Shown: positions 60,092-64,000 of the stretch, piece after piece
Layout: each line of letters opens with the position of its first letter
Position numbering within the stretch: position 1 is the first letter of the stretch
Assembly: GCF_005849285.1 (NCBI RefSeq)
Contig: NZ_CP040517.1
Location: 564,501 to 628,500, forward strand
DNA: 64,000 nt
Origin: Luteithermobacter gelatinilyticus
GTDB taxonomy: Bacteria; Pseudomonadota; Alphaproteobacteria; Sphingomonadales; Emcibacteraceae
Reading direction: 5' to 3'
Notes under the pieces: generated by a model
The model's input: the letters and a program-made list of their open reading frames with translations, nothing else
Databases searched by the model: none
What the model was told of the DNA's origin: nothing
Position numbers and translations under genes: made by a program

Positions 60092-60862
60092 ATGCCGATT
60101 TCTGAATTTATAGATCAAAGCCTGAAGGCCGTCACGATTTCTGAACTACTGTCTTTTTTCAGACAGGCGCTAGGCGAACTGGGATATCCCTATATCATGC
60201 TGGCCGCCTTGGGGGAAGGATGGCGGGATGCGGATATTTTTGCCCGGCAGGAGCGTTCCCTGCCGCCGCCTCTGCTGTGGAGCAGTTTTCCACGCCTTTG
60301 GCAGGATTATTATTACGGTCGTAACGCCCAGCATCATGACCCGGTGCTGTTGTACGGACCGAGGTGTGTCCGGCCGTTTTTCTGGCACGAATTGCCGGCA
60401 AAGTTTGCATTGACCCGACCGCAACAAACGATCCTCAGGGCGGCGGAAACCTACGGACTGCGCCAGGGTGTGGGGGTGCCTATTCATGGGCCGGGCCGTT
60501 CGGTTTTTCTGGTTTCTTGTGCCGGTAAAGGGGGGGAAGAAAAGGCGCAAGGGAGGAGCAGGGAGGCGCCGGAAGAGAGGGTGTTAAGTCGGCTGTATCT
60601 GCTGACGGTTCAGTTTCACCGGGTTTTGCGGATATTGCATCCGATCGAGCCGCCGCCGCAGCCGGTGCCTGATTTGACATCCCGGGAGCGGGAATGTCTG
60701 GAATGGATCGCGCGGGGCAAGTCCACATGGGGCATCGGGGTGGTGCTGGGCATCAGCGAACATACTGCCAAGTGCCATATCCGCAATGCCTTGCGCAAAC
60801 TCGCCGCGACCAACCGCACGGAAGGGGTGATCAAGGCCCTGCATCTTGGCCTGTTGGAGTAA
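60092..60862 (+). CDS. LuxR-type regulator with autoinducer-binding domain
   Basis: A 256-residue quorum-sensing-type regulator. In the N-terminal domain Trp70, Tyr74, Asp83 and Trp98 have the same spacing (4, 9, 15) as the ligand-pocket residues Trp57, Tyr61, Asp70 and Trp85 of TraR, and GLRQGVGVPIHGPG supplies the later conserved Gly. The C-terminal LuxR helix-turn-helix is DLTSRERECLEWIARGKST followed by VLGISEHTAKCHIRNALRKL. No luxI synthase is in this window, so it may be a solo receptor. It lies 115 bp upstream of the first lasso precursor and is a likely regulator of that cluster. Confidence 0.92.
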   Translation: MPISEFIDQSLKAVTISELLSFFRQALGELGYPYIMLAALGEGWRDADIFARQERSLPPPLLWSSFPRLWQDYYYGRNAQHHDPVLLYGPRCVRPFFWHELPAKFALTRPQQTILRAAETYGLRQGVGVPIHGPGRSVFLVSCAGKGGEEKAQGRSREAPEERVLSRLYLLTVQFHRVLRILHPIEPPPQPVPDLTSRERECLEWIARGKSTWGIGVVLGISEHTAKCHIRNALRKLAATNRTEGVIKALHLGLLE

Positions 60863-60903: not shown

Positions 60904-60977
60904 TTGTGATTGATTTTAAGGGAGTGTTAAATTTAAATACCGGAGAAATTCGGCAACATTCTTAAAAGGAGAACAAT

Positions 60978-61094
60978 ATGCTTAAGAAAATCGGTGCGGT
61001 TTCAGAAGAAACAAGGGGCTTTGACGGCAATTACCTGGAAATTCCCGCCAACCCTACCAATCTGCGTCGGACACCTATGTCGTCAGATGATTAA
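60978..61094 (+). CDS. Lasso peptide precursor 1 (38 aa)
   Basis: Precursor of a ribosomally made lasso peptide. The leader is only 13 residues, MLKKIGAVSEETR, with Thr at -2 as required by this class and the ETR-G junction seen in astexin-type precursors. The core has 25 residues: ring segment GFDGNYLE, in which Gly1 would be joined to Glu8, then a tail IPANPTNLRRTP with a final MSSDD. The start is certain: AAGGAG lies six bases upstream and an in-frame TAA at 60963-60965 rules out a longer leader. The gene is too short for most ORF callers. Confidence 0.92.
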   Translation: MLKKIGAVSEETRGFDGNYLEIPANPTNLRRTPMSSDD

Positions 61095-61119
61095 AAATTC
61101 CACATCAAAGGAGAGAGCA

Positions 61120-61236
61120 ATGTTGAAAAAGCATGGGTTTGTTTCGAAGGAAACAAGGGGAATTGAAGGGAATTTCCTTGAAGTTCCCGCTAATCCGACC
61201 AATTTGCGCCGGACGCCTTTACCGCCGAACGATTAA
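61120..61236 (+). CDS. Lasso peptide precursor 2 (38 aa)
   Basis: Tandem paralogue of precursor 1, 26 bp further on. The leader is MLKKHGFVSKETR and the 25-residue core has the ring segment GIEGNFLE (Gly1 to Glu8), then VPANPTNLRRTP and a final LPPND. Gly1, Gly4, Asn5, Leu7, Glu8 and the whole PANPTNLRRTP stretch are shared with precursor 1, while positions 2, 3, 6, 9 and the last five vary. GGAG lies six bases upstream of the ATG. The frame is open further upstream, but the match to precursor 1 supports this start. Confidence 0.92.
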   Translation: MLKKHGFVSKETRGIEGNFLEVPANPTNLRRTPLPPND

Positions 61237-61254
61237 TCGGCGAAGCCCTCCTCG

Positions 61255-61281
61255 GCGTGCAGCAAATGCTGCACGCTGTTT
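61255..61281 (+). terminator. Hairpin terminator or attenuator after the lasso precursors
   Basis: A perfect 10-bp stem GCGTGCAGCA / TGCTGCACGC with a two-base loop (AA), followed by TGTTTTC. It would reduce transcription into the B and C genes so that the precursors are made in excess. Confidence 0.8.
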
Positions 61282-61288
61282 TCATGTT

Positions 61289-61584
61289 TAGAGTGAATTG
61301 TGAATAGGTTGACCCATTCTGCCGGGCCGGTCTGGTTCAGGAGCCAGGGGTTTGGCGCAGGCCATACTGGCGGTACGGCCCAGCCAAACCCCGCCGGAAC
61401 TGGACCAGATCGGCCCGGCCCTTCGGGTTGGCGGCTTGGGGCCGCTCACTTTGTCAGACGCCTGGGTCAGACGCCTGGGTCAGACGCCTGGCCCGATGCC
61501 CCGCATCGCCCGGCGCCGTCTTCCGCGTGAGGCGGGCCACAATCCGCCAACAGAATTGAGCCAACCTCTTCACAATTCACTCTA
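61289..61584. mobile_element. 296-bp MITE-like element with terminal inverted repeats
   Basis: The left end TAGAGTGAATTGTGAATAGG (then TTGACCCATTCTG) and the right end, read inward, TAGAGTGAATTGTGAAGAGG (then TTGGCTCAATTCTG) form inverted repeats of about 33 bp. The interior is GC-rich and has three 13-bp tandem units GTCAGACGCCTGG (61453-61491). It has no convincing gene. The ends are the same as the dispersed palindrome family. It separates the lasso precursors from the B gene. Confidence 0.8.
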
Positions 61585-61633: not shown

Positions 61634-62359
61634 ATGACAGGGTATCGTTTAAACAGGGATGTTTATATGTGTCAGGTAGACGGACATGCAATGTTTCTGA
61701 ACCTGCGCAACGACGAATATCTGTCCTTGCCGCCGGATCAGAGCCGGAAGCTCGCTATCTTCCTCAAGGGAGAATTATTACCTGCGGATGAAACGGGGGA
61801 TAATACCGTGCAGGCCCTGCTTGCCGAGATGCAGGAAGCCGGTCTGCTGACCCGTCATCCGAAGGAGGGAAAAATGATAGCGCCTATGGAAATGAATCTG
61901 GCCGGTCGGGACCTTGGGGGATATCGACCGGGGGAAGAACCCCGGGTAAGGGTGGGGCATGTAGTGCATTTTTTTAGGGCGGCGTTTATCTCCCTGTGCC
62001 GGTTACGATGGGAACCGCTGCATCGGACGGTTCACCGGTTGCGCAAGCATAAACATAAATGGCTTGGGTTGCGAGTTTTATCCTCCCCCGGCCCGCAAGA
62101 TTGCGAACTTGAACAAATTCGGGAGCTGGTGGAAATTTTTAATTTCCTGCAACCGCTGCTTTTCACGGGTCGGAATCGGTGCCTGTTTCAATCCCTGGCC
62201 CTGCTAGAGTTTCTGGCCGGTTACGGGATTTTTCCCGACTGGGTTTTCGGGGTCAAAATGAAACCTTTCGTTGCCCATTGCTGGCTGCAGACGCATGGGG
62301 TGGTTCTCAACGATACGGTGGATCATGTAAGCCTTTACACGCCCATCATGATCGTTTGA
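61634..62359 (+). CDS. Lasso peptide maturation protein B (RRE-transglutaminase-like fusion)
   Basis: A 241-residue protein combining the two B functions. The first 80 or so residues are a PqqD-like RRE domain that binds the leader (GHAMFLNLRNDEYLSLPPDQ ... AGLLTRHP). The rest is the B2 leader peptidase: catalytic Cys in RNRCLFQSLALLEFL, His in FVAHCWLQTHG and Asp in VLNDTVDHV, the Cys-His-Asp order of McjB. GAGGTAACTGG precedes the ATG. It is followed 12 bp later by the C gene. Confidence 0.92.
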   Translation: MTGYRLNRDVYMCQVDGHAMFLNLRNDEYLSLPPDQSRKLAIFLKGELLPADETGDNTVQALLAEMQEAGLLTRHPKEGKMIAPMEMNLAGRDLGGYRPGEEPRVRVGHVVHFFRAAFISLCRLRWEPLHRTVHRLRKHKHKWLGLRVLSSPGPQDCELEQIRELVEIFNFLQPLLFTGRNRCLFQSLALLEFLAGYGIFPDWVFGVKMKPFVAHCWLQTHGVVLNDTVDHVSLYTPIMIV

Positions 62360-62371
62360 AAGGGGGAATTC

Positions 62372-64000
62372 ATGTATAGATATGTTGCCTTGACTTGGGA
62401 TCAGGAGAATGCCCAGGCAAGGGAAGCCGTGCGTGACCTGATCGCAGCAATGGAGGGGGAGGCCGAGGGCTGGCGGAAGGTTCTAGCGGTGGACGGTTTC
62501 ATGGTCTGGCATGTCGGGGAAAGAGAGGGCCGGATGCAAACCTATCTGATCCGGAATGACGCTGGCCTGGCAGAAGGTGGCGTCGTTTTGGGAAAACTCT
62601 TCAAAAGAGCGACGGCCCAACATTTGGTTCCGACATGTCTGGACGGGCCGGAAAGCCATTCTATTATCCATACAAAGGGACGACATCTCACCACAAATTA
62701 TTGGGGGCGCTATGTGGCCTTTATCCGGGATGAGAAAGGAGATGGGCTGAATATTTTGCGCGATCCCATCGGCTCCTTCCCCTGTTACTATATGCGCTAC
62801 CGGATGGTGGAGATCTATTTTTCCTATATGCCGGATATCCGGAAAATTACAGGAATGTCTTTTTCCATAAACTGGGATCATGTGGCCCATTTTATGGCTT
62901 ATGGTCCCCAGAAAACGGAACAGACCGGCCTCGGGGAAGTCTCGGAACTGTTACCCGGCCAATGTCTGGAAACGCCTTTTCCGGACAATGATCCGTCCTT
63001 TTACTGGTCTCCGGCGGATATTGCCCGGAACGATCCGTTAGAGGATATCGAGCAGGCAGCAAGGGAACTGCGGCAAACGACCCGCCATTGCGTGGCGGCC
63101 TGGGCGGCTTGTTATAACAATGTTTTTCACAACCTGTCCGGGGGGCTGGATTCCGCTATTGTGCTGAATTGCCTGAAACAGGCGGCTGTGCCGCCGCGCA
63201 TCAGTTGCATAAATTACTTTACCGAGGAGCGACAGGGGGATGAACGCTGTTACGCCCGGCTTGCTGCGGAGCAGGCCAGTGTACCGCTTTATGAAACCTG
63301 CCTGAGCAGTGCAAATATCAGCCTGAGAAGGGTTCTGCGTCTCATAAAAGAAGCCAAGCCGGGCAATTATCTTTATGAGCGGGCCCGGGATCATTTTGAG
63401 CCCACTTGGATCAGGGAAATCGGGGCGGAGGCCTGTTTTTATGGTTCGGGCGGCGATAATGTATTTTTCCAACCGGAAACGCATCTCGGCGCCGTTGACT
63501 TTGTGCAGTCCCACGGGCTGAGGTCGCTTTTATGGCGGGTTGCGCTGGAAGCGGCCCGGCTGGACCGGCGCTCCGTCTGGTCAGTTCTCACCATCCTGTT
63601 GAAGCAATGTTTCCTGAAATCCTATGATCGCATGAAATACATACGCAATGGTTACAAGACATCCCTGATGGCCCCGGATCTTATAGAAACGCTTGATCCG
63701 TCAAGGGTTTTGCATCCCGTTTTACGAATGGAGGAGCATATCCCGCCCGGCAAGTTTTTTCATATTTTTATTGCCACGAGTTGTCCGGACTATTACGAAC
63801 CGCTGGAACGGAAAGAAGATTTCCTGGAGCCGGTGTTGCCGCTGTTTTCACAGCCTCTTGTAGAGTTGTGCCTGAGAATCCCGACCTGGATCATGACCGC
63901 GGGCGGGCGCGAGCGCGGGCTGGCGCGTCGGGCGTTTTCCGATCATATTCCGCAGGAAATTGTCCGGCGGGAAGCAAAGGGCGGGGCGGACATTCTGTAT
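62372..64000 (+). CDS. Lasso peptide macrolactam synthetase C (3' end cut by window)
   Basis: Asparagine-synthetase-like enzyme that activates the Asp/Glu side chain with ATP so that the core N-terminus closes the ring. The frame is open for 543 codons from the ATG at 62372 (AGGGGGAATTC upstream) to the last base, with no stop, so the gene continues beyond the window. The N-terminal domain begins MYRYVALTWD without the Cys2 nucleophile of glutamine-dependent enzymes, as is usual for this class. The ATP pyrophosphatase loop is LSGGLDSAIVLN (Ser256 to Ser261), followed by FYGSGGDNVFFQ. Confidence 0.93.
   Translation, partial: MYRYVALTWDQENAQAREAVRDLIAAMEGEAEGWRKVLAVDGFMVWHVGEREGRMQTYLIRNDAGLAEGGVVLGKLFKRATAQHLVPTCLDGPESHSIIHTKGRHLTTNYWGRYVAFIRDEKGDGLNILRDPIGSFPCYYMRYRMVEIYFSYMPDIRKITGMSFSINWDHVAHFMAYGPQKTEQTGLGEVSELLPGQCLETPFPDNDPSFYWSPADIARNDPLEDIEQAARELRQTTRHCVAAWAACYNNVFHNLSGGLDSAIVLNCLKQAAVPPRISCINYFTEERQGDERCYARLAAEQASVPLYETCLSSANISLRRVLRLIKEAKPGNYLYERARDHFEPTWIREIGAEACFYGSGGDNVFFQPETHLGAVDFVQSHGLRSLLWRVALEAARLDRRSVWSVLTILLKQCFLKSYDRMKYIRNGYKTSLMAPDLIETLDPSRVLHPVLRMEEHIPPGKFFHIFIATSCPDYYEPLERKEDFLEPVLPLFSQPLVELCLRIPTWIMTAGGRERGLARRAFSDHIPQEIVRREAKGGADILY

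Follow-up and report, generated by a model that had tools for sequence, protein, structure and literature searches.

Lasso peptides are knot-shaped, and the described clusters nearest to the one treated here are those of the astexin, sphingopyxin and caulosegnin type, which have in common with it the A-B-C gene order, a fused B protein, an AtxE2-like isopeptidase, a TonB receptor, a FecR protein and a sigma factor, along with precursors that carry Thr-2, Gly1 and an acid at core position 8. The usual lasso leader has 20-40 residues, as a 2026 review puts it (PMC13352647), which bears out the claim of the original prediction that most described leaders are longer than the 13 residues found here.

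Microcin J25 comes close in another way. Like our locus it has a fused B protein (McjB), and the passages of PMC11420955 that deal with the leader report that McjA leaders shortened by up to 28 N-terminal residues still yielded product, the last eight residues sufficing for product to be detected. Unlike ours, however, the natural microcin leader has about 37 residues, with -37 to -9 described as dispensable, and its short form was engineered; the same passages describe a modelled pocket for Thr-2 that is formed by both halves of McjB. The TfuB1 and TbiB1 structures with bound leader (6jx3, 5v1u/5v1v) have an RRE fold that our B protein shares, but they are separate B1 proteins, and the RRE-leader contacts reported in PMC10368454, Tyr-17 and Pro-14 (Leu-12 is the third of the set), are absent from a 13-residue leader. 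Metanodin, from a Steroidobacteraceae metagenome, likewise combines ABC genes with an isopeptidase, and its family also supplies three loci of the branch described below (L017, L019 and L034); it differs in its Asn1 ring and is a lead only (PMC12670498). No described lasso class with leaders of 12-15 residues turned up in the literature searched, which covered few subscription papers and no large mining tables. What, then, is one to make of a cluster in which the whole of the leader comes to 13 residues?

The cluster and its two precursor genes

The window (the whole stretch of 64,000 nucleotides that was analysed) belongs to a genome of 3.15 Mb in a single contig, with one B match found in the whole of it. 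Its genes run in the order A-A-B-C, that is, two precursors (P1 and P2), then B, then C (Table 1). By its NF033537 score B is a B2-type leader peptidase. For C, the 543 residues that lie within the window score 54.4 against the NF033535 lasso cyclase model, far below the cut-off of 525, so that the cyclase call rests on the Pfam domain and on the position beside B. An AtxE2-like isopeptidase follows C on the opposite strand, which places the cluster in the isopeptidase subtype, and beyond the window, on that other strand, there are a TonB receptor, a FecR protein, a sigma factor and a second LuxR protein of the autoinducer-binding kind. Judged from its genes, the locus is an isopeptidase-type proteobacterial lasso cluster of ordinary arrangement.

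Table 1. Features of the lasso locus, in window coordinates except where L002 is named
Feature	Position	Strand	Basis or remark
LuxR-type regulator with autoinducer-binding domain	60092..60862	+	PF03472 78.4 bits, PF00196 62.6 bits; both above cut-off
In-frame TAA bounding the P1 leader	60963..60965	+	sequence; frame check
P1 ribosome site AAGGAG	60966..60971	+	6 bases before ATG; sequence
P1 precursor gene	60978..61094	+	38 residues; 13-residue leader and 25-residue core
P1 leader, 13 residues (MLKKIGAVSEETR)	60978..61016	+	sole in-frame start; register via Thr-2/Gly+1/Glu+8 and family motif
P1 core, 25 residues and stop	61017..61094	+	sequence; 8-residue Gly1-Glu8 ring predicted from family rules
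P2 ribosome site AAGGAG	61108..61113	+	6 bases before ATG; sequence
P2 precursor gene	61120..61236	+	38 residues; 13-residue leader and 25-residue core
P2 leader, 13 residues (MLKKHGFVSKETR)	61120..61158	+	ribosome site and homology to P1
P2 core, 25 residues and stop	61159..61236	+	sequence; Gly1-Glu8 ring predicted
Strong hairpin and short T run after P2	61253..61278	+	61237-61290 folds at -23.6 kcal/mol, z -3.99; terminator-like pattern
MITE-like element, 296 bp, 28-bp terminal inverted repeats, TA ends	61289..61584	.	between P2 and B; many same-genome copies
Lasso B protein, RRE (about residues 1-78) fused to cysteine peptidase	61634..62359	+	NF033537 67.3 bits (cut-off 33), PF13471, model, RRE match
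Lasso cyclase C, asparagine synthetase-like	62372..64000, on to L002:4198 past the window	+	PF00733 60.2 bits (cut-off 21); full ORF 608 residues
Intact S9 peptidase, isopeptidase-like	L002:5962-8139	-	top match among solved structures: AtxE2, a lasso isopeptidase (E 2.7e-97)

Several neighbouring elements deserve a word of their own. The two autoinducer-binding LuxR-type genes flank the cluster, the one listed in Table 1 and another at L002:13602-14300 (-). An S9 peptidase gene next to the intact AtxE2-like one, just past the window at L002:4153-6017 (-), is broken into two ORFs and seems degraded or shortened. Terminator-like patterns number 2 in the region, against 1.1 expected; the hairpin after P2 may be a partial terminator or an mRNA-stability element, and lying as it does between P2 and the MITE-like element, it possibly lowers the expression of B and C relative to the precursors. 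As for that element, 26 of 93 same-genome matches, the window copy included, cover query bases 6-300 or more (from 271 first-look candidates, 40 had been scored).

The precursors themselves are short and much alike. P1 consists of its leader followed by the core GFDGNYLEIPANPTNLRRTPMSSDD, and P2 of its leader followed by the core GIEGNFLEVPANPTNLRRTPLPPND; the cores are strongly alike, with PANPTNLRRTP common to both. Each precursor has Thr-2, Gly1 and Glu8, which agrees with what we took to define a lasso precursor, namely Thr-2, a small residue at +1 and an acid at +7 to +9. The two copies form a direct tandem repeat of 130 nt at 70% identity that spans ribosome site, ATG, leader and core. 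Between them the differences at codon positions 1, 2 and 3 number 11, 3 and 20, and the codon changes are 14 synonymous and 11 non-synonymous, a pattern expected of coding sequence. The leader motif at a threshold of 14 has no match in window positions 1-59000, and since the repeat is of the coding type and lasso B and C genes lie downstream, the pair is not a product of chance. The observation of two tandem genes with 13-residue leaders, both of the form LKKxGxVSxETR, is therefore confirmed, for P1 directly and for P2 by way of its ribosome site and the repeat.

Could the true leader nevertheless be longer, either from a start further upstream or, for P2, as part of a longer reading frame? 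For P1 the original prediction had held that it could not, and rightly: an in-frame TAA stands five codons before the ATG, only four codons lie between the two, and a search of the frame for a further ATG, GTG or TTG found none besides the ATG at 60978, so that the leader cannot exceed 13 residues. The P2 frame does stand open for 61 codons, as far as a TAA at 60934-60936, and offers three in-frame starts before the ATG at 61120 (60994, 61021 and 61087), but all three lie inside P1 and score lower for a ribosome site (0, 4 and 0, where that ATG has 6), and the repeat takes in both the ribosome site and the ATG of each copy. A longer leader is thus hardly credible. The TTG at 61123, the codon directly after the P2 ATG, also has a ribosome-site score of 6, and would give a leader of 12 residues.

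A second doubt is whether the cluster is decaying, with the short leader as a relic of something once longer. The split and seemingly shortened S9 peptidase and the MITE-like element that parts the precursors from B might invite such a thought, but P1, P2, B and C are all open, third codon positions account for most of the differences between P1 and P2, the cluster has an intact AtxE2-like peptidase, and the leaders of relatives are of similar length. We regard decay as improbable.

Leader lengths among relatives and the branch to which B belongs

How short is 13 residues among relatives? Two sets of loci, which share some genomes, were surveyed. The named set comprises B loci from the best 80 of 144 relatives, and for that reason leans to kin of the window; the order-wide sample comprises 106 B places in the 84 of 396 genomes with a match, three family places of that survey being counted as the named loci L011, L012 and L016. 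Precursors were sought by scanning as much as 4 kb of the DNA before B with a motif of ten positions (-9 to +1) and were kept at a score of at least 13 and a ribosome-site score of at least 4, within 620 bases of B. Seven candidates scoring at least 13 were lost in this way, one of them the second 12-residue leader of L012, which has no ribosome site; in L013 and L014, too, the second candidates with 12 residues are without one. Leaders of 10-11 residues would have been detected, and those below 10 less surely, since the motif itself spans -9 to -1.

In the order sample this upstream scan yielded 108 precursors, spread over 93 loci, with a median leader of 21 residues (two of at most 13 and three of at most 15), and in the named set it yielded 85 precursors in 65 loci, with a median of 26 (13 of at most 13, one of them an artefact, and 17 of at most 15). 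The artefact is the 10-residue leader of L074, which we rejected as a start-call error because an in-frame ATG gives a 28-residue leader identical to that of a sister strain, although it stays in these raw counts; leaders of 70 residues (L088) and 41 residues (L030), probably over-called starts, were also kept. A second scan covered the whole of the named loci and L216-L218 on both strands, with the first core residue left free, and brought in 14 more precursors from 11 loci, each with a leader of 12-13 residues and a score of at least 20.0; a control on the reversed named loci (779,108 bp) returned four weak chance matches, the top one at 16.4. Those added by this second scan lie downstream of C in L013 (Kordiimonas), L014 (Eilatimonas), L016 (Emcibacter), L021, L022/L218, L216 and L217, and upstream of B on the other strand in L029, L032 and L037. 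In the order sample the scan went no further than 4 kb upstream of B, so that precursors downstream of C were missed there, L216-L218 excepted. In 8 of the 80 named loci the whole-locus scan found no precursor (L017 is one, with a 30-residue leader by the upstream scan), and a search for other small ORFs in precursor-less loci gave nothing convincing. A side observation is that the first core residue of the downstream precursors in L013, L014, L016, L216 and L217 is predicted to be Ile, Val or Phe, and that each of them has an acid at core position 8 or 9.

Put together, the list of short leaders comprises 36 precursors in 30 loci, window and L074 included, which becomes 35 in 29, all of 12-15 residues, without L074, 33 in 28 other loci once the window's two are also set aside, and 32 in 27 if the contig common to L218 and L022 is counted once. 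For 20 of the precursors, in 17 of the 30 loci (P1 and the repeat contig included), no start codon in frame could extend the leader beyond 15 residues. Among 398 genomes sampled across the phylum, 10 had a match at 1e-12, and none of nine precursor candidates with a scored start, which came from eight of these ten loci with short flanks, had a short leader; the short leader is on that account uncommon overall. A plasmid search with B found matches in 24 records, all below 60% identity.

Where, then, do the short leaders fall? A maximum-likelihood tree of B proteins was built from 79 rows, that is, the window, 70 of the 80 named B proteins (a fragment, L050, and nine near-copies being left out) and eight hand-chosen rows from the 106 order-sample places, two of which (L118 and L158) had been picked for their short leaders; a careful version has 75 rows, without L121, L119, L033 and L055. 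The careful tree has two sides, split with support of 100/100. On the window's side, leaders of at most 15 residues belong to 28 of the 39 rows with a readable leader, two of which are not independent because L216 and L216b, B genes of one genome, share a precursor set; on the other side it is one of 31 rows, L158, which was added by hand. Short leaders turn up repeatedly in one of the two branches of these fused B proteins, and the window, with its B on that side and a leader within 12-15 residues, belongs to it. In the other branch (Asticcacaulis, Sphingopyxis, Xanthomonas and others) leaders span 18-29 residues, except one of 14, and the RRE wing is shorter.

That last difference could suggest that a longer wing compensates for a short leader, an idea that we rejected because wing length does not track leader length inside the window's branch (44.6 residues with short leaders and 45.2 with long ones, against 31.9 in the other branch). 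Leader length is labile, changing at least nine times on the B tree, and the nearest relative of the window's B, L011 (39-40% identity), has a 23-residue leader; both facts count against the reading that we favour below.

Leaders of 12-15 residues are thus short but not exceptional, being common in the window's B branch and uncommon overall. The original prediction had called them unusually short, which stands beside the usual range and fails beside these relatives: the comparison of lengths that it had itself proposed gives many such leaders in genome data and none in the literature searched, and with 33 precursors in 28 other loci, the finding that it had named as telling against it has largely materialised in genomes. 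Its interpretation is, on the whole, partly supported.

Position -12, the RRE and the limits of the leader

If length does not set these leaders apart, their residues may still explain how so little suffices. Conservation at -9 to -1 is partly circular, since those positions were used to find the precursors; conservation at -12, -11 and -10 is independent of the search, since these lie outside the motif, and in 146 distinct leaders of at least 18 residues it amounts to a relative entropy of 1.73, 2.18 and 1.31 bits. Further out, the same leaders fall to 0.87, 0.48, 0.26 and 0.21 bits at -13 to -16 and stay low through -21; in those that reach further, two outer positions are high again, -23 with 1.72 bits (53 leaders) and -25 with 1.43 (44 leaders). 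A hydrophobic residue occupies -12 in 177 of 191 distinct precursors and -13 in 5 of 162, and none of the 191 has a leader of fewer than 12 residues. All 13 leaders of 13-15 residues have a hydrophobic -12; so do all 21 of the 12-residue leaders, necessarily, as there the residue is the initiator Met. In the window it is Leu.

The common pattern of these precursors is an aliphatic -12, Gly-8, Ala or Val at -6, Ser-5, mostly Glu or Asp at -3, and Thr-2, and the window's leaders retain it as Leu-12, Gly-8, Val-6, Ser-5, Glu-3 and Thr-2. The motif to which the original prediction had pointed is in the main, then, that common pattern, and its odd part is Lys-11/Lys-10, where most relatives have Ile or Val and Asp, Glu or Val; position -9 (Ile or His) is unusual as well. 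YxxP is indeed missing, as had been said. Of the YxxPxL set (Tyr-17, Pro-14, Leu-12), a leader that starts at -13 has Leu-12 alone. Yet we do not accept this as a meaningful absence: Tyr-17 together with Pro-14 occurs in 1 of 104 leaders of at least 17 residues in the order sample and in 0 of 66 in the named loci (the sets overlap in part), so the lack is a trait of the surveyed group and uninformative about the window.

Does B have an RRE to read such a leader? A profile of 63 aligned B proteins matches TfuB1 (6jx3) in the PDB at E 1.9e-4, with a weak match to TbiB1 (5v1u, E 0.057) and one unrelated match at E 0.22. An AlphaFold2 model of the window's B (pLDDT 91.9) has an RRE fold at residues 2-76, and its best structural matches are leader-bound lasso B1 proteins, at Z 9.4, 8.6 and 8.2 over 72-75 residues, the first two values being those of the TfuB1 and TbiB1 structures; Foldseek alone, run with this model against the PDB, gave no match at E of at most 0.001 (the best was 0.014). 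The claim of an RRE rests on the profile match and the Z-score match, and on those grounds the window's B is taken to contain an RRE domain, the fold being that of the model. The original prediction, in which an RRE-bearing B must act on a minimal leader, would accordingly seem sound. All 63 aligned proteins have Tyr29, Cys183 and His215. The family as a whole does not always have Cys183: a further copy from outside the 63, the second B copy of G003 (L010:1501-2196, -), has Ser at that position and is possibly inactive. The RRE tyrosine of FusE, Tyr33, is suspected to engage Thr-2 (PMC10368454), and Tyr29 of the window's B would be its counterpart.

One might argue instead that the core compensates, B and C also reading conserved core residues so that the leader adds little beyond Thr-2. 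The close likeness of the P1 and P2 cores would fit, as would the eight leader residues that McjA needs for detectable product in the passages cited above (PMC11420955). By eye, however, the cores of most other short-leader loci differ from those of the window, and a hydrophobic -12 in every short leader (all 13 of those in which the initiator Met does not supply it) together with a floor of 12 residues would be unexpected if the leader barely mattered. We consider core compensation unlikely, although less so than either decay or a hidden longer leader.

The 13-mer is instead best read, from its sequence and those of its relatives, as the recognition segment and no more, with Leu in position -12; this reading follows from the onset of conservation at -12, from the want of any leader below 12 residues and from the hydrophobic -12.

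A leader probably reduced to its recognition segment

How might so small a leader work? The RRE half of the fused B would hold it as a short strand, from -12 to about -8, by way of the hydrophobic -12 and Gly-8; the RRE and peptidase halves would jointly seat Thr-2; B would cleave after Arg-1; and C would join Gly1 to Glu8 of the 25-residue core. That is, we hold it to be very probable that this isopeptidase-type cluster has, as its 13-residue leader, the C-terminal recognition segment (-12 to -1) that its relatives share, without their variable N-terminal extension, and that the segment is read in the manner just proposed. We take the window to contain a known type of lasso cluster, with a variant leader that it shares with an apparently undescribed branch.

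We lean, with rather less assurance, to a broader view, in which the branch uses naturally minimal leaders that start at the outermost RRE contact, with the initiator Met itself serving as -12 in the 12-mers and with 12 residues as a natural floor, and in which such leaders offer a ready-made handle for engineering. Since wide conservation reaches no further out than -12, twelve looks like a natural minimum.

What had been an engineered truncation in microcin J25 would, then, be a natural and recurrent state, and one that indicates which residues a lasso RRE requires. The prediction is a simple one: loss of the hydrophobic -12 should hurt, and an N-terminal extension should not help. There is also a practical side, in that gene finders easily miss precursors of some 30-40 codons with 12-residue leaders, which sometimes lie downstream of C and have a first core residue other than glycine.
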